Assembly (NCBI RefSeq): GCF_011250635.1
Contig: NZ_JAANNP010000001.1
Location: 1,024,933-1,088,932 of the forward strand
DNA from: Motilibacter deserti
GTDB taxonomy: Bacteria; Actinomycetota; Actinomycetes; Motilibacterales; Motilibacteraceae
Direction of reading: 5' to 3'
DNA length: 64,000 nucleotides
Of this stretch, positions 9,237 to 49,360 are shown in pieces; position 1 is the first letter of the stretch; the number at the start of each line of letters is the position of its first letter. The notes under the pieces are model-generated. The model made no database searches, was not told where the DNA came from, and was given only the letters and a program-made list of their open reading frames with translations. The position numbers and the translations under genes were made by a program.

Positions 9237-11564
9237 ATGACCAGTTCGGCCGACACCTCGTCCACGACCGGCCTCTCCCGCCGCTCGCTCCTGGGCGCCG
9301 CGCTGGCGGCCCCCGCCGTCGCGACGCTCCCCGCGATCGTCGCCCCCGGCACCGCGTCCGCGGACAGCGCGCCGTACGGCCGCATCGATGCCGAGAGCCC
9401 GCGCTTCACGCTGGCCGTGCTGCCCGACACGCAGTACCTCTTCGACTCCGACGCCTCCGATCCCACGCCGCTCGCCGAGACGTTCCACTACCTGCTCAAG
9501 CAGCGCAAGGACGACAACATCGTCTTCATGACCCACCTCGGTGACGTCACCGAGCACGGGACCCAGGACGAGATCAGCCTCGCCGCGCAGACGTTCGACG
9601 CCGGGCTGTCCAACCAGATGCCCTACAGCGTCCTCGGCGGCAACCACGACGTCTCCGGGGACGACCAGCGCGGCAGCACGCCGTACCTGCGGGCCTTCGG
9701 CCCCCAGCGCTTCGCGGGCATGCCGACCTTCCGCGGCGCCTCGCCCGACGGCTACAACAGCTACCACGTGGTCCGCGCGGGCAACCGCGACTGGCTGATC
9801 CTGGCGCTGGACTGGCGGCTCTCGGCCAAGGGCGTCGCGTGGGCGCAGGGCGTCATCGACGCCAACAAGAGCCTGCCGGTCATCCTCACCACGCACGACC
9901 TGGTGGGACCGACGACCGGCGGCCAGGCCGCGCTGTCGTCGAACGGGCAGTACCTCTGGGAGAACCTGATCCGCAAGAACGACCAGGTCTTCCTCACCCT
10001 CAACGGCCACTACTGGCCGCCCGCGCGCACGGTCCTCACGAACAACGCCGGGCACCCGGTCCACGCCCACATCACGAACTACCAGGACCGCTACTACGGC
10101 GGCGCCGGCATGATCCGGCTCTACCACTTCGACCTCGTGCGCAACGTGGTCGACGTCGAGACGATCGCCCCGTGGTTCCTCAACCGCGACCCGCAGAAGC
10201 GCACGCCGCTCGAGGCCGAGACGATCGAGCTCACCGGCGACGACGACCGCTTCAGCATCGAGATCGACTTCGCCGAGCGCTTCAGCGGCTTCGCCCCGGT
10301 GGTCGCGCCCGGGCCGCGCCCGGCGAGCGCGGTCATGCCGCGCGGCACCCTGGCGTACTGGCGCTTCGACGCAGCGGGCATGGCGGGCGCGGGCACCGCG
10401 GGCGCCACGGTCGCGGCGGGCGTCACTGTCAAGGACCTCACGGGCAACGGCAACGACCTCGTCAGCAAGTACATCGGCCAGGTGGGGACGCCCTTCGGCA
10501 TCCCGGGCAGCATCGCGTCGCGGGTCGTCGAGATCACCGCGAGCGGTGAGAACCCGCCGAGCGAGACCTCGGTCAACCTCAACGACGTCAACGGCGGCAG
10601 CAAGTGGCTGGTCCGCGCGACCACCGGCTGGGTCCGCTACCGCCTCGACGCGGCCGTCCGGGTCGTCGGCTACGCCCTCACGAGCGGCAACGACGCCCCC
10701 GGCCGCGACCCGCGCGACTGGAGGCTGGAGGGCTCGAACGACGGCAGCGCCTGGACGACCGTCGACACCCAGTCCGGTCAGACGTTCTCCGGCCGCGGCC
10801 TGACGAAGCAGTATCAGGTGGCCACGCCCGGGGCGTACTCGTACTACCGGCTCAGCATCACCGCCAACAACGGCGACCCGCTGATCCAGCTGGCCGAGCT
10901 CCAGCTGTCGAACGACCCCAACGGCCCGGTCCCGCCCGGCTCGTCGGTCCTCAGCTGGTCCGACGACCACATGGAGGGCCAGCCCGCGCACGCCAGCCTG
11001 CGCTTCAACGGCGGGCAGGGGCCCAACCGGGGCGCGATCCTGGAGTCGGTGCAGAACGCGAAGATCAACAGCGAGAAGTTCCTGTCCGGCTTCACGATCG
11101 AGGCGTTCGTCAAGCTGCCCCAGCCGTTCGTGGGAAGCCACGCGTGGATGGGCATCCTGAGCTGGGAGGGCAACAACGGCCGCACCAGCGGCTACACGCC
11201 CAACGAGCCGCCGTGCAGCCTCAACCTCTCCGGCGAGCGGTTCCTGCAGTTCGTGCTCTACCCGGAGCTCGACGTGGCCAACAACCCGACGCACTGGAGC
11301 CACGCGCTCCCGACCGGCGAGTGGCAGCACGTCGCGATCGTGAACGACGGCAAGCGCTCGACCGTCTACGTCAACGGCTCGAAGATCGCCCGCAACCCCG
11401 CGGCGTCCGCCCGCGGCATTCACACCCTCGGCAAGCCGTTCGTCATCGGCGCGACCCAGTCGAACGAGACGTTCGGCCAGGGGTTCTACGGCTGGATCGG
11501 CGACGTGCGCGTCTGCACCCGCGCCCTTCAGCTCAAGGAGTTCCTCAAGCCGTACGACCGCTGA
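9237..11564 (+). CDS. Tat-exported metallophosphoesterase with discoidin-like and LamG-like modules
   Basis: 775 residues from an ATG preceded by GGAG. The N-terminus is a twin-arginine signal (LSRRSLLGAALAAPAVA), implying export of a folded, metal-loaded enzyme. Residues about 55-330 are a calcineurin-like phosphoesterase: AVLPDTQYL, HLGDVTEHG, GGNHD, TTHDLVG and LNGHY supply the metal ligands. The first motif reads D-T-Q instead of the usual D-x-H, as in some extracellular members. Residues about 430-565 resemble an F5/8 type C (discoidin) domain (RDWRLEGSNDGSAWTTVDT, YSYYRLSITANNGDP). The last 200 residues are a concanavalin/LamG-like fold (GEWQHVAIVNDGKRSTVYVNG). The two accessory modules suggest carbohydrate or surface binding. 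The substrate is unknown. Confidence 0.88.
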   Translation: MTSSADTSSTTGLSRRSLLGAALAAPAVATLPAIVAPGTASADSAPYGRIDAESPRFTLAVLPDTQYLFDSDASDPTPLAETFHYLLKQRKDDNIVFMTHLGDVTEHGTQDEISLAAQTFDAGLSNQMPYSVLGGNHDVSGDDQRGSTPYLRAFGPQRFAGMPTFRGASPDGYNSYHVVRAGNRDWLILALDWRLSAKGVAWAQGVIDANKSLPVILTTHDLVGPTTGGQAALSSNGQYLWENLIRKNDQVFLTLNGHYWPPARTVLTNNAGHPVHAHITNYQDRYYGGAGMIRLYHFDLVRNVVDVETIAPWFLNRDPQKRTPLEAETIELTGDDDRFSIEIDFAERFSGFAPVVAPGPRPASAVMPRGTLAYWRFDAAGMAGAGTAGATVAAGVTVKDLTGNGNDLVSKYIGQVGTPFGIPGSIASRVVEITASGENPPSETSVNLNDVNGGSKWLVRATTGWVRYRLDAAVRVVGYALTSGNDAPGRDPRDWRLEGSNDGSAWTTVDTQSGQTFSGRGLTKQYQVATPGAYSYYRLSITANNGDPLIQLAELQLSNDPNGPVPPGSSVLSWSDDHMEGQPAHASLRFNGGQGPNRGAILESVQNAKINSEKFLSGFTIEAFVKLPQPFVGSHAWMGILSWEGNNGRTSGYTPNEPPCSLNLSGERFLQFVLYPELDVANNPTHWSHALPTGEWQHVAIVNDGKRSTVYVNGSKIARNPAASARGIHTLGKPFVIGATQSNETFGQGFYGWIGDVRVCTRALQLKEFLKPYDR

Positions 11565-11612: not shown

Positions 11613-11777
11613 CCTCTCGCCCGGCTGCTGTGGTTCAGCGCGGCTTGACCCCTTCAGCGCCGAGCGTTCACGTGCGGTTCATCCGCCCGTCCCTTGCTGA
11701 CCCGGGAACCGCAGCGTCGCGGGAGCACTGTTCAGGGGCAACGACCTCCGGCGGCCATACAAGGAGCAGTCCCCGAC

Positions 11778-13511
11778 ATGGGCCACAGCCACGGGCACGA
11801 CCACCACCACGACCACGACCACGACCACGACCACGGGCACGGGTCCGCGCACCCGACGCCCGAGGCCGTCGACACATCGATCCCGGACTCCGAGCTCAGC
11901 CCGCGGGACCTGTCCCGCCGCACGCTGCTCCGCAACGCCGGGCTGCTCGGCGCGGGCGCCGGCGCGATGAGCGTCTTCGGCACGGGCGTCGGCACCGCCG
12001 CCGCGGCCTCCGGGGGCAAGGCCAAGGCCGTCGAGGACGACGAGCTGACGTACGTCGCCGGCGACCACCACATCCACACCCAGTTCAGCTCCGACGGCAT
12101 GTACCGCGTCGAGGACCAGGCCCGTCGCGCCGCCGAGTACGGCCTGGACTGGATGGTGGTCACCGACCACGGCAGCGCCGCCCACGCGAAGATCGGCGTG
12201 GAGAAGGTCAACCCGGAGATCGTCGCCTCCCGCGAGGCCAACCCGCGCACGCTCGTCTTCCAGGGCCTGGAGTGGAACATCCCGGCCGCCGAGCACGGCA
12301 CGGTCTTCGTGGCCCCCGGCCCCAACGAGGTCGCGGTGCTCAAGGAGTTCGAGAACACGTTCGACGGCTCCGTCACCGGGACGTCGAGCGGCGTCCCGGG
12401 GGCGCCCACCACGCCCGCCCGCGAGGCGCTCGCCATCACGGGTATCCAGTGGATGGCCCAGCAGAAGCAGGCCGGCCGCGTGCAGGACGCGATCATGTTC
12501 GCGAACCACCCCGCCCGCCTCGGCATCGACAGCCCGCACGAGATCCGCGGCTGGCGCGACGCCGCCCCCGGCATCTTCACCGGCTTCGAGGGCGCTCCCG
12601 GGCACCAGGCCGCCCAGCTCGAGGGTGGGGCCCGTGGCGCGTACGGCAACTCCCCTGGCGCTGCGAGCTTCCCCGCCTACCCGCTGGCGTCCTACCGCAC
12701 CCACGGCGGCTTCGACTGGATGACCGCCACCGTCGGCGGTCTGTGGGACTCGCTGCTGGCCGAAGGGCGCCCGTGGTGGATCACGGCCAACTCCGACAGC
12801 CACTCGAACTACGGTGACCGGTTGGTGCGGGGCGCGTTCGGCCCCGGCGAGGACTTCAACACGCTGGGCCAGTACAACGACCCGATCGACTCGGGGGTGC
12901 CGCAGCTCGACCGCTCGGACTTCTGGCCGGGGCAGTACAGCCGTACCCACGTCGGCGTCAGCAGGTTCGGCTACCTCGACGTCATGTCCGGCCTGCGTGC
13001 GGGCCGCATCTGGGTGGACCACGGCCAGCTGATCGACGGCATCGACGTGCGGCTGCGGCTGCGCGGCAGCGAGCAGCGCACCGCCACGCTCGGCGGCGTG
13101 CTCACGGTGCCCCGGGGCTCGCGGGTCGACCTCGAGGTCACGATCGACCTGGCCAGCCGGCCGAACCTTGCCGGCGAGATGCCGCGGCTGCGCCGCGTCG
13201 ACGCGATCGCGGGCGCCGTGACGGGCCTGTCGACGGACAAGGACAGCTTCCGCGCGCCGCAGACGACGGTCGTGGAGTCCTTCGAGGTCAGCCAGGCCTC
13301 CGGACGCGTCGAGCTGTCCATGCGCTTCCGCCCGGTCGAGGAGGCCTTCTACGTCCGGCTGCGCGGCACCGACGCCAACCGGACCGGGGTGGGCTTCTAC
13401 GGCGCGTCCGTCGACCCCGAAGGCCCGGCCATGGACATCCCGGGCCAGGGGAGCCCGTGGGAGGACCTGTGGTTCTACACGAACCCGATCTGGGTGAACG
13501 TCACGCCGTGA
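11778..13511 (+). CDS. Tat-exported PHP-type metallohydrolase (CehA/McbA-like) with a His-rich N-terminus
   Basis: 577 residues from an ATG with AAGGAG eleven bases upstream. The first 25 residues are an extreme His/Asp/Gly run (HGHDHHHDHDHDHDHGHG) placed before the twin-arginine motif (DLSRRTLLRNAGLLGAG). The catalytic part begins at GDHHIHTQFSSDG, a PHP-like H-x-H metal motif. It continues with WMVVTDHGSAAHAK, QGLEWNIPAAEHGTVF, MFANHPARL and ITANSDSHSN, which supply further His/Asp metal ligands. This order fits CehA/McbA-type metallohydrolases of the PHP superfamily. The C-terminal third is beta-rich. The substrate is unknown; relatives cleave carbamate or phosphate esters. It overlaps the next gene by four bases (GTGA), so the two are probably partners. 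Confidence 0.85.
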   Translation: MGHSHGHDHHHDHDHDHDHGHGSAHPTPEAVDTSIPDSELSPRDLSRRTLLRNAGLLGAGAGAMSVFGTGVGTAAAASGGKAKAVEDDELTYVAGDHHIHTQFSSDGMYRVEDQARRAAEYGLDWMVVTDHGSAAHAKIGVEKVNPEIVASREANPRTLVFQGLEWNIPAAEHGTVFVAPGPNEVAVLKEFENTFDGSVTGTSSGVPGAPTTPAREALAITGIQWMAQQKQAGRVQDAIMFANHPARLGIDSPHEIRGWRDAAPGIFTGFEGAPGHQAAQLEGGARGAYGNSPGAASFPAYPLASYRTHGGFDWMTATVGGLWDSLLAEGRPWWITANSDSHSNYGDRLVRGAFGPGEDFNTLGQYNDPIDSGVPQLDRSDFWPGQYSRTHVGVSRFGYLDVMSGLRAGRIWVDHGQLIDGIDVRLRLRGSEQRTATLGGVLTVPRGSRVDLEVTIDLASRPNLAGEMPRLRRVDAIAGAVTGLSTDKDSFRAPQTTVVESFEVSQASGRVELSMRFRPVEEAFYVRLRGTDANRTGVGFYGASVDPEGPAMDIPGQGSPWEDLWFYTNPIWVNVTP

Positions 13512-46804: not shown

Positions 46805-49360
46805 CTAGCCCGAAGGTGAATCATCCAACCGCCGCATAAGTTGCGCGAGGTTGTGTACCGCCATGAGCTCGCCGTCCTTGTCACGAATGGACACAAAGCC
46901 TTGGCGGGCCGACTCCAGAGCCTCTTGTGCGGCTGGGTAGGCACTCATGAACATCAAGGCAAGGCCCTTGTTCATGTACACACTCGCTTCGCCGCGCTCA
47001 TCGCGGACGTCTTTGTACGCGCTCATCGCGTCGTCGAATATTGCCAGTGACGTCTTCGGGTCGCCCGACTGACTGATGGCCGTAGCAAGCTGTGCTGTCG
47101 TGGACGCCTCTGCCCACCGCGCGCCATTCGCTCTGTGTATCGGTAGCGCCATCGAAAGCGCATGGACCGCATTTCGGTACTGCCCGCTCTCCCGGTATGC
47201 GATGCCGAGGTTGGTCAGCGCGAACCCGGACGCGAATGGCCTGCCCTGCTCTTGATGATAGCGAATAGCCCGGCGAAGGGGTCCGATGCTCGCGGCGACA
47301 TCCCCGCGCCTGCGTAGGGCCTCTGCAAGACCGACGAGCACTGTAGATTCTTCCTCCCATCTGTCCCCGAGCGGGAGTTCGCGAAGGGCTTTGAGAGCAC
47401 GCTGGTGGGTGCGAACAGCTTCGTCGAAGCGTCGAAGCGAGGAAAGAGTCAGGGCGGAATTATTTAGTGTGACCGCAATCTTTAAGTTGTCCGCTAGGCG
47501 CTCGGCCGCTTTCTGTGCCAGGCCGAGCAGCCCTAGCGTGGTTTCGTACTCCCGTCGCAGGGATAGATAAGGTACAAGCGAATTGCCGAGATGCCAAGCG
47601 CCGTCAAAGAGTTCGAGCTCCAAAGCCGCGGCAACGGCGCCGACCAAAGCCACGCGCTCGCCATCCATCCAAACGAGCGCACTAGTTCTGGAGTCGAGCA
47701 GATCTCCGGGCTCCGGCTCACCCATCCCGTTTATCCAAGCGTTGAACTGGTCCACTCGCCGTTGATACTGCATCAACAAGCGATTGAACGCATCCCTCCG
47801 GTCGTGCTCGGACTCGGCAAGCGCTAGCTCTTCTCGAGCGAACAGACGAAGTAGGTCGTGCATCCTCCACAGGTTCCCGTCAACGGACTCGAGCAGATTG
47901 GCTACGCGTAGTTGGCGGAGCAACCTCTTGGCGTCGGTGCTCCCGATATCAGCTAAGTGCTCAAGCGCATTTGACGAGATGTGGCCGCCGGGATGCAGTG
48001 ACAAGAAACGGAACGCGCGTGACACCTCGCTGGTTAGACGTACATAAGAGCTGCGAAACACGCCGCGAACAGCAGCATCCTCATACTGCAGGCCCTCAAG
48101 TCGGGTGGCCTCAGCTTGCAGTTCGTCGGCCAACTCTCCGGGCGATAGATTCGGAAACGCAACGAGGGTCGCCTTGACGACGTTCAGAGCCAGCGGAAGC
48201 CCGGCGCATAAGTGCGCCAGGTGGATCAGGTCCTCTTTGGCATGGTGCTCAGCGTGTCCCATGCCATTCCTACTATTCGCCAGGAGTTGCACTGCCGTAT
48301 CCCCGGGAAGAGGGGAAAGGTTTAGTGTCTCGGCCGAAAGTCGGGGGCCGATCTCGTGCCGTGACGTGACGATGACTCGGTGCATACTTTGATTTGGTAG
48401 GAGTGGCAGTACTTGGCGCGCGTCGAGAACATCATCGAACAACAGTAATACAGGGCGTCGTGCGAGTTCACGCTCATGCAGCAGCGCGTGGTACTGAGCT
48501 GAGTGTACAGAGCTGTCGTCGGCGATCTCCGCGTGGCCAAGCGCTTGCAGCAAAACACCGAAGACTCGATGAGGCCCAACCGAGTCAGTGAGATGCGACT
48601 CGTGGGCACGGAAGTCAACCCGGACCGCGCCACCAGTGAAGTGTTTGACCGCAATCGCCGCTGCTGCGGAGGCTAGAGCCGTTTTGCCGACACCGGGTAG
48701 ACCCGTGACGGCAAGCACTCCAGCTGAGCTATCGTCGGCGAGAAACGACTTGAGAAGTGCTAGCTCGGCAGTGCGTCCAACGAGAGGGTCAGTGAGACGC
48801 GTGGCCGCGTATAGTGGTGTCACGATCGGCAGCCCATGGTCGCCTGCCGTGGCCTCCCGCAAATCGCGAACGAAATCCGCATAGGCCTTGGCCTCTGACG
48901 ACGCGCTTATGTTCAGGAATCGTTCACGCAGTTCGGCCATCTGTGGCGCGTCCAGGATCACGCATATGCGCTCAAGGTGATAGATCTCCGAGCCGCATGG
49001 CACAGTATCGGTAAGACTGTTGCGCTCACTTAGGCTGAGTGCCTGATTAGTTACGAAGGCAATTCCCTGAGCCTGATTCGCTGCGACGCCGTGAAGGTCC
49101 TGTACGAACTTGCGCCTGATCTCGCTGAAAGACCGTTGCTCCGCGGGAAAATATGACGCCATGATCCACTTCTCGTCTCCGCGCCACATGATTGCGTCTT
49201 TCGCGCCGTCAGGGCCTCCGCGAGGGTGACTCGGGTCGAGCCGCACGAACCCCTCCGCGATCATGAGTTGCGCGGAAAGTGCCTCAGCTCGGGCCTGACC
49301 GTCGCTCCATGCCGTGAGTCGCCTGCGCGTCTCGTCCCACTGGGGCCTCACGAACGGCAC
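46805..49360 (-). CDS. STAND ATPase: unassigned (possibly nuclease-like) N-terminal domain, NB-ARC, TPR repeats
   Basis: 851 residues from a GTG at 49360. Residues 1-180 are an unassigned domain: FVRLDPSHPRGGPDGAKD, DEKWIMASYFPAEQ and GIAFVTNQALSLSER, which has the feel of a restriction-endonuclease-like fold (P50-D51 and D62-E63-K64 are PD and DxK candidates). Residues about 195-420 are NB-ARC: Walker A GLPGVGKT (220-227), Walker B PVLLLFDDV (303-311), TSRHE (332-336) and GLPLAL. A winged-helix segment (MHDLLRLFAREELALAES) follows. From about 600 there are TPRs (LGLLGLAQKAAERLADNL, AVRTHQRALKALRELP, YRNAVHALSMALPIHRANG). The layout is that of anti-phage Avs-type or regulatory STAND proteins. 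Codon use is AT-richer than in the flanks, suggesting transfer. The defence role is inference. Confidence 0.88.
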   Translation of the reverse strand: MPFVRPQWDETRRRLTAWSDGQARAEALSAQLMIAEGFVRLDPSHPRGGPDGAKDAIMWRGDEKWIMASYFPAEQRSFSEIRRKFVQDLHGVAANQAQGIAFVTNQALSLSERNSLTDTVPCGSEIYHLERICVILDAPQMAELRERFLNISASSEAKAYADFVRDLREATAGDHGLPIVTPLYAATRLTDPLVGRTAELALLKSFLADDSSAGVLAVTGLPGVGKTALASAAAAIAVKHFTGGAVRVDFRAHESHLTDSVGPHRVFGVLLQALGHAEIADDSSVHSAQYHALLHERELARRPVLLLFDDVLDARQVLPLLPNQSMHRVIVTSRHEIGPRLSAETLNLSPLPGDTAVQLLANSRNGMGHAEHHAKEDLIHLAHLCAGLPLALNVVKATLVAFPNLSPGELADELQAEATRLEGLQYEDAAVRGVFRSSYVRLTSEVSRAFRFLSLHPGGHISSNALEHLADIGSTDAKRLLRQLRVANLLESVDGNLWRMHDLLRLFAREELALAESEHDRRDAFNRLLMQYQRRVDQFNAWINGMGEPEPGDLLDSRTSALVWMDGERVALVGAVAAALELELFDGAWHLGNSLVPYLSLRREYETTLGLLGLAQKAAERLADNLKIAVTLNNSALTLSSLRRFDEAVRTHQRALKALRELPLGDRWEEESTVLVGLAEALRRRGDVAASIGPLRRAIRYHQEQGRPFASGFALTNLGIAYRESGQYRNAVHALSMALPIHRANGARWAEASTTAQLATAISQSGDPKTSLAIFDDAMSAYKDVRDERGEASVYMNKGLALMFMSAYPAAQEALESARQGFVSIRDKDGELMAVHNLAQLMRRLDDSPSG

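Follow-up and report, generated by a model that had tools for sequence, protein, structure and literature searches.

A gene at 11778-13511 (+) in the window, as we call the whole 64-kb stretch of Motilibacter deserti DNA analysed here, encodes a metallohydrolase precursor in which a His-rich tail stands ahead of the RR motif of a predicted Tat signal. Comparison of homologous sequences indicates that the tail is a family trait across actinobacteria and not a local repeat. The reading we favour, at a probability of about 0.45, is that this tail handles metal: it would work on the cytoplasmic side as the precursor folds, and would be left behind at export. Metal binding by the tail, like any role in metalation, is something that we infer from sequence.

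The open reading frame specifies 577 residues with the N-terminus MGHSHGHDHHHDHDHDHDHGHG, and the translated N-terminal part reads MGHSHGHDHHHDHDHDHDHGHGSAHPTPEAVDTSIPDSELSPRDLS-RR-TLLRNAGLLGAG. Sequence and alignment give the order of the precursor as His run, RR motif, hydrophobic stretch, A-x-A site and PHP-fold metallohydrolase. A first-pass annotation of this DNA had placed a His/Asp-rich run ahead of the RR motif of a metallohydrolase, and this was confirmed, the string it quoted corresponding to residues 5-22. We took the ATG at 11778 as the start because a Shine-Dalgarno-like AAGGAG, read directly at 11761..11766 (+), lies ahead of it and homologues have Shine-Dalgarno-like sequences in the same place. 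When the starts of homologues were compared, as had been suggested along with that claim, the tail was found to begin at a conserved Met, with the Shine-Dalgarno-like sequence upstream at the same position before most starts. A similar sequence was looked for at an upstream in-frame TTG (11694), and none was found; the next ATG downstream of 11778 falls beyond the RR motif. The stop codon occupies 13509-13511 (+). The M. deserti genome has just one full-length copy of the gene, a second match (E 7e-4) covering residues 27-157 only. The neighbouring gene at 9237-11564 codes for a calcineurin-like metallophosphoesterase with F5/8-type C and LamG-like domains, in which an RR motif is present (LSRRSLLGAALAAPAVA) and a His tail is absent.

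The tail itself (residues 1-22; 11778..11843, +), delimited by translation and family comparison, is a His/Asp/Gly segment with 11 His and 5 Asp; 12 His lie ahead of the RR motif, which begins 25 residues after the tail (R47). At the His frequency of the mature part (2.7%), the binomial chance of finding at least 11 His in 22 residues is 2.6e-12. Part of the tail DNA consists of tandem copies of a 6-base unit (CACGAC x 6.7, 11796-11835), so that slippage could produce such a run locally. We nevertheless consider the tail to be neither chance nor a local repeat, because homologues keep a His-rich tail with other interleaved residues. The residues between the His vary by genus, giving HP in Microbispora (where starts were placed by hand at MSEGH if the automatic choice was downstream), HG, HA or HD in Streptomyces, and HD, HP or HE in Nocardioides. 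Among 66 tail-bearing members, the N-region counts 35-63 residues with 6-16 His (median 11), and His makes up 54% of the run, Gly 15% and Asp 10%, with Lys and Arg together below 1%; by these sequences, the composition of the run differs from that of an ordinary basic N-region. In four Micromonospora/Phytohabitans loci (L004, L006, L008 and L046), a second His/Asp/Gly cluster, e.g. HDHGPGGDHG, occurs past the likely cleavage site and would remain on the exported enzyme.

A contig scan for the family used six peptide patterns, one of them the His run itself, so its counts lean towards tails. For this reason we made a tail-free search, with residues 90-577 as the query against 393 genomes of the class, and scored a tail wherever at least 6 His occurred within 60 residues ahead of the RR motif. 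The search returned 51 matches from 43 genomes, and 31 of these had a tail (L131, whose RR motif was not readable, being counted among the tail-less). At 57% identity or more, the tail was present in 30 matches out of 30.

Tail-free matches, named genomes and relatives together made a family set of 109 distinct sequences, 104 of which entered a quick maximum-likelihood tree (L027, L030, L045, L059 and L062, cut, masked or missing the N-terminus, were left out). The rows of the tree comprise 66 with a tail, 35 without and 3 unclear. L007, L132 and L090, with 4 His each, were not labelled, L007 (Amycolatopsis) being a close homologue at 59% identity; L031 and L032 were labelled tail-less by hand, their His lying upstream of the likely start. 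On the 101 labelled rows, the minimum number of changes between tail and tail-less is 3, a count that does not separate gain from loss. Three groups lack the tail. One is an outgroup of 11 rows at ~36% identity; another is a clade of 12 labelled rows that includes many paralogues from Streptomyces, with starts like MTEQQLPxWADP; the third, again with 12 rows, is a Lentzea/Kribbella/Clavibacter clade. Tail-less clades retain the RR motif and all the invariant candidate ligands, and the existence of three such clades implies that neither catalysis nor Tat export seems to require the tail. The run is far from absent in all relatives, the outcome that the first-pass annotation had named as speaking against its idea: 66/101 labelled members and 31/51 tail-free matches carry it.

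At the codon level, 23 disjoint close pairs gave 183 identical, 19 synonymous and 24 changed His codons, corresponding to an N/S ratio of 0.16 of a crude neutral expectation, the value for neighbouring codons being 0.83. With a nucleotide alignment, the changed and synonymous counts were 22 and 17 for His, and 59 and 24 for the neighbours. In eight pairs of equal length, compared free of alignment, 68 His codons were identical, 5 synonymous and 15 changed; the changed:synonymous ratio was 15:5 for His and 12:10 for the neighbours. These pairs put His at 0.38 of neutral and the neighbours at 0.43, using the neutral value from the 23-pair test, and 0.38 is the safer figure. In an earlier count over overlapping pairs, the contrast between His and neighbours was absent from the raw ratios. 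The idea that His codons are held more tightly than their neighbours was dropped, the contrast being gone in the eight alignment-free pairs. Overall, the codon counts indicate that purifying selection acts on the His codons, albeit without proving selection on His alone.

The mature enzyme (12009..13508, +) comprises a PHP domain and a C-terminal beta-sandwich, assigned with PF02811 and by structural comparison. The PF02811 profile scored 34.3 bits against a cut-off of 26.4, and the AlphaFold model showed the PHP fold when compared with solved structures, the closest being 3e38 (Z 18.9, rmsd 2.8, 221 aligned) and 2anu (Z 18.4, rmsd 2.5, 201 aligned); for the beta-sandwich, aligned structural rows lie at ~415-577. 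Seven residues that we take to be the PHP metal ligands (H98, H100, H131, E165, H244, D340 and H342) are invariant in 47 members, tail or no tail; the first candidates, H98-x-H100, are encoded at 12069..12077 (+). Against NF038032 (CehA/McbA family metallohydrolase), the protein scored 71.7 bits, under the NCBI cut-off of 80, and 47/47 aligned members matched at E <=0.001. The PHP fold and invariant His/Asp/Glu ligands are common to PHP-domain metallohydrolases (PF02811; 3e38, 2anu; NF038032), whereas the predicted Tat export and the long His-rich N-region set the M. deserti protein apart.

Between tail and enzyme lie a linker (residues 23-46; 11844..11915, +), defined by alignment and model and bearing the motif D-x(2)-[VI]PD-x(2)-LSP, and, as judged from conservation, the RR motif (R47 R48) with the hydrophobic signal part up to a putative A-x-A cleavage site near A76/A77 (11916..12008, +). 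In 47 aligned members R47 and R48 are invariant and A76 is at least 90% conserved; the hydrophobic stretch ends in AAAA near residue 77. Sequence and alignment together display the RR motif, hydrophobic stretch and A-x-A site by which Tat substrates are recognized, and Tat export of the PHP enzyme is predicted from them.

Within the linker, D32 and P42 are invariant in 30 aligned N-terminal parts. In the full-length AlphaFold model, which was built from 47 rows and has a mean pLDDT of 87.2, order begins at about residue 90, and pLDDT values are below 50 for residues 1-25, predicted to be disordered, and for residues 58-87. The linker scored 91 (residues 31-40) and 84 (residues 41-50) in this model, and 85 and 88, respectively, when the N-terminal 89 residues were folded alone. 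Docking of the linker onto the enzyme was accordingly dropped as an explanation, the same order appearing in the isolated segment and being local, and, with no docking, nothing positions the tail close to the active site. Tail-less paralogues (L088, L089, L122-L129 and similar, many of them from Streptomyces) retain a linker of the form WADPxVxxxxLDPQGxSRR.

As controls we used 30 loci each of PhoD and of PhoX (which we take to be the DUF839 phosphatase) from related genomes. The family open reading frame was found in 26 PhoD and 28 PhoX loci, with an RR call in 26 and 27, respectively; the start was not found at 4 PhoD loci and 1 PhoX locus, and a few of the control RR calls look spurious. 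At least 5 His ahead of the RR motif occurred in 0/26 PhoD and 0/27 PhoX Tat loci, meaning that, by sequence, the His tail is limited to the PHP enzymes within this comparison.

A survey for HxHxHxH together with RRx(hydrophobic), blind to His tails of any other pattern, hit only the PHP gene in the M. deserti genome (two overlapping forward matches) and gave matches in 73/98 relative genomes, mostly in chance frames. Among the matches listed (L167-L204), nine had a hydrophobic stretch in the same frame: the main family (L168), a second, distinct PHP-Tat family (L197, L198), transporters that are presumably RcnA-like (L199, L200, L203, L204), and others (L184, L201). L181 and L187 are likewise RcnA-like, and the RcnA-like in-frame loci have an internal loop. 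The second PHP-Tat family has a short His tail ahead of the RR motif in two genomes of one genus, with MSDADHEHRHGHH...SRRDVL and MSDAEHEHPHPHPH...TRRDVL (L197 at 270-1616, -; L198); a third near relative has a shortened stretch only (MCDADHEHGDDEG), and more distant relatives have none. Searches of the open-licence PMC literature turned up no account of a His-rich segment preceding an RR motif. We class the M. deserti segment with the His-rich metal-binding tails, as a conserved variant whose position is unusual.

The Tat system transports folded proteins, so the metals of the PHP site must be acquired before export, in the cytoplasm. By the established topology of Tat substrates, the far N-terminus does not cross the membrane and is removed together with the signal peptide; the tail would accordingly remain cytoplasmic and go with the signal. 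The precursor would have an extended cytoplasmic N-region, made of a disordered His-rich tail, a short conserved linker and the RR motif; the tail would bind divalent metal while the enzyme folds in the cytoplasm, help the PHP site to obtain the right metal set, and be discarded together with the signal at export. It might load the site by donating metal from a high local concentration, or serve as a decoy that holds off tight-binding metals. The data fit both variants equally; loading, which we slightly favour, is itself improbable, and the decoy a little more so.

The first-pass annotation had gone as far as a built-in metallochaperone. The order of the segments, their conservation and the absence of the tail from PhoD and PhoX lend this reading partial support; three tail-less clades, which keep both ligands and Tat motif, speak against a required loader. 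That the tail is a throw-away metallochaperone which supplies metal in cis to a multi-metal PHP site, or guards that site, a device that two separate PHP-Tat families would have acquired, is a tentative proposal with the odds against it. Metal handling in general is favoured by the tail in all 30 near homologues, its 54% His, the purifying selection on its His codons, its limitation to PHP enzymes among the controls, with a short tail in the second PHP-Tat family, the PHP fold with its invariant ligands, and the precedent of MncA described below. Against it stand the tail-less clades, which make the tail dispensable in some lineages, as well as PhoD and PhoX, Tat-exported metalloenzymes that manage without such a tail, the loss of the His/neighbour codon contrast in the alignment-free pairs, and the local nature of the order in the linker.

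One alternative, improbable in our estimate, is that the tail, with metal or a chaperone bound to it, hides the signal or delays its use until folding is complete, keeping unfilled enzyme from being exported. Such gating of export would suit the conserved, locally ordered linker that joins the tail to the RR motif, and there is a precedent for contact between metal handling and Tat signals: the chaperone SlyD, with its nickel-binding C-terminal domain, attaches to the RR region of Tat signal peptides (PMC11198818). However, the tail-less paralogues keep the linker too. We are just as sceptical that the N-region, as a hydrophilic, disordered segment in which His is incidental, simply maintains the solubility of the precursor or prevents its contact with the membrane; the disorder predicted for residues 1-25, and the free change of the residues between His in some of the tests, agree with that view, but a general hydrophilic spacer does not need 54% His over 66 members, nor His codons under purifying selection. 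Least credible is drift of a CACGAC microsatellite that grows and shrinks at the gene start with little function since, despite the repeat in the window, the varying tail length and two tail-less clades within the main family, the tail persists across genera with differing codons and letters, its place is invariably the very N-terminus, 30/30 near homologues have it, and 3 changes suffice on the 101 labelled rows.

A tail that handles metal would resemble several known systems in part. SlyD also has a metal-binding segment for metalloenzyme assembly; it acts in trans, as a separate protein, like the His-rich metallochaperone HypB, whereas the M. deserti segment is in cis, inside a discarded signal. 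An N-terminal DHDHDHDHDHDH run is carried by a metalloenzyme subunit, thiocyanate hydrolase gamma (2dd4, 3vyg), but this is an unrelated enzyme with no RR in the aligned part, and the match is a low-complexity one (E 0.25). For the periplasmic Mn cupin MncA, folding before Tat export, with metal uptake in the cytoplasm, is described as a means of securing the correct metal (PMC8867077, in the part available), and the likeness lies in Tat export allowing metal to enter in the cytoplasm; MncA has another fold, and a His tail goes unmentioned in that part of the source. Few model systems exist for the open question of how exported metalloenzymes come by the right metal ahead of Tat transport; a conserved cis tail, accompanied in some genomes by natural paralogues that lack it, offers a direct way to test it. 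If the throw-away metallochaperone reading is true, Tat signals can carry a cofactor-handling module besides an address.

Upstream of the gene, two 11-base direct repeats, GTTCACGTGCG GTTCATCCGCC, form a PHO-box-like pair at 11666..11687 (+) that ends 90 bases ahead of the start codon; a weaker third unit, CGTCCCTTGCT (11688-11698, +), adjoins it. The pair was recognized from the upstream regions of homologues and by a repeat score based on letters that we presume to be the PHO-box consensus. It has the top score of the window on both strands, and 0/200 shuffles matched it in the first scoring, which gave a strong signal in some members only. After viewing the upstream alignments, we allowed units 22 apart and re-weighted the score, meaning that the resulting counts are post hoc and, coming from related sequences, not independent: p <=0.05 (dinucleotide-preserving shuffles) was reached in 51/65 tail-bearing and 15/35 tail-less members, with 8/103 random windows and 4/103 reverse-strand sequences as controls. 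By clade, the tail-less counts were 2/12 (MTEQQLP clade), 5/12 (Lentzea/Kribbella/Clavibacter clade) and 8/11 (outgroup). The mean best pair score was 21.0 at spacing 11, 20.1 at spacing 22 and 17.7-19.1 at other spacings from 6 to 29. The same score picked out 12/24 PhoX and 5/18 PhoD controls, a shortfall implying that true sites were missed, or that some of the starts used were wrong, or that not all of these genes are targets.

Streptomyces PHO boxes are 11-base direct repeats bound by PhoP, in the available text of PMC7866108, and direct repeats of this kind, the sequence mark of the PhoP regulon, are what our post hoc scoring finds here. Phosphate control of the PHP gene is likely on this sequence evidence and, as the outgroup also has the repeats, may predate the tail. 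The enzyme is probably a phosphoesterase induced by phosphate starvation. PhoD and PhoX have in common with it a predicted Tat signal, probable PhoP control and probable phosphoester chemistry, but their folds differ and they have no His tail ahead of the RR motif (26 and 27 loci). Both phoD and a Tat-secreted DUF839 phosphatase appear as activated Pho-regulon members in PMC8269224. No description of a secreted PHP phosphoesterase family in the actinobacterial phosphate response was found in open-licence PMC, and a PHP domain goes unmentioned in the main text of two Pho-regulon papers (PMC8269224 among these). The PHO-box-like sites point to such a family in that response. The runner-up in the window, a GTTCA pair at 48911 (+), falls inside a large open reading frame at 46805-49360 (-) and is probably due to chance; by eye, this frame appears to encode a P-loop and a repeat-like C-terminal part (NB-ARC/TPR-like).
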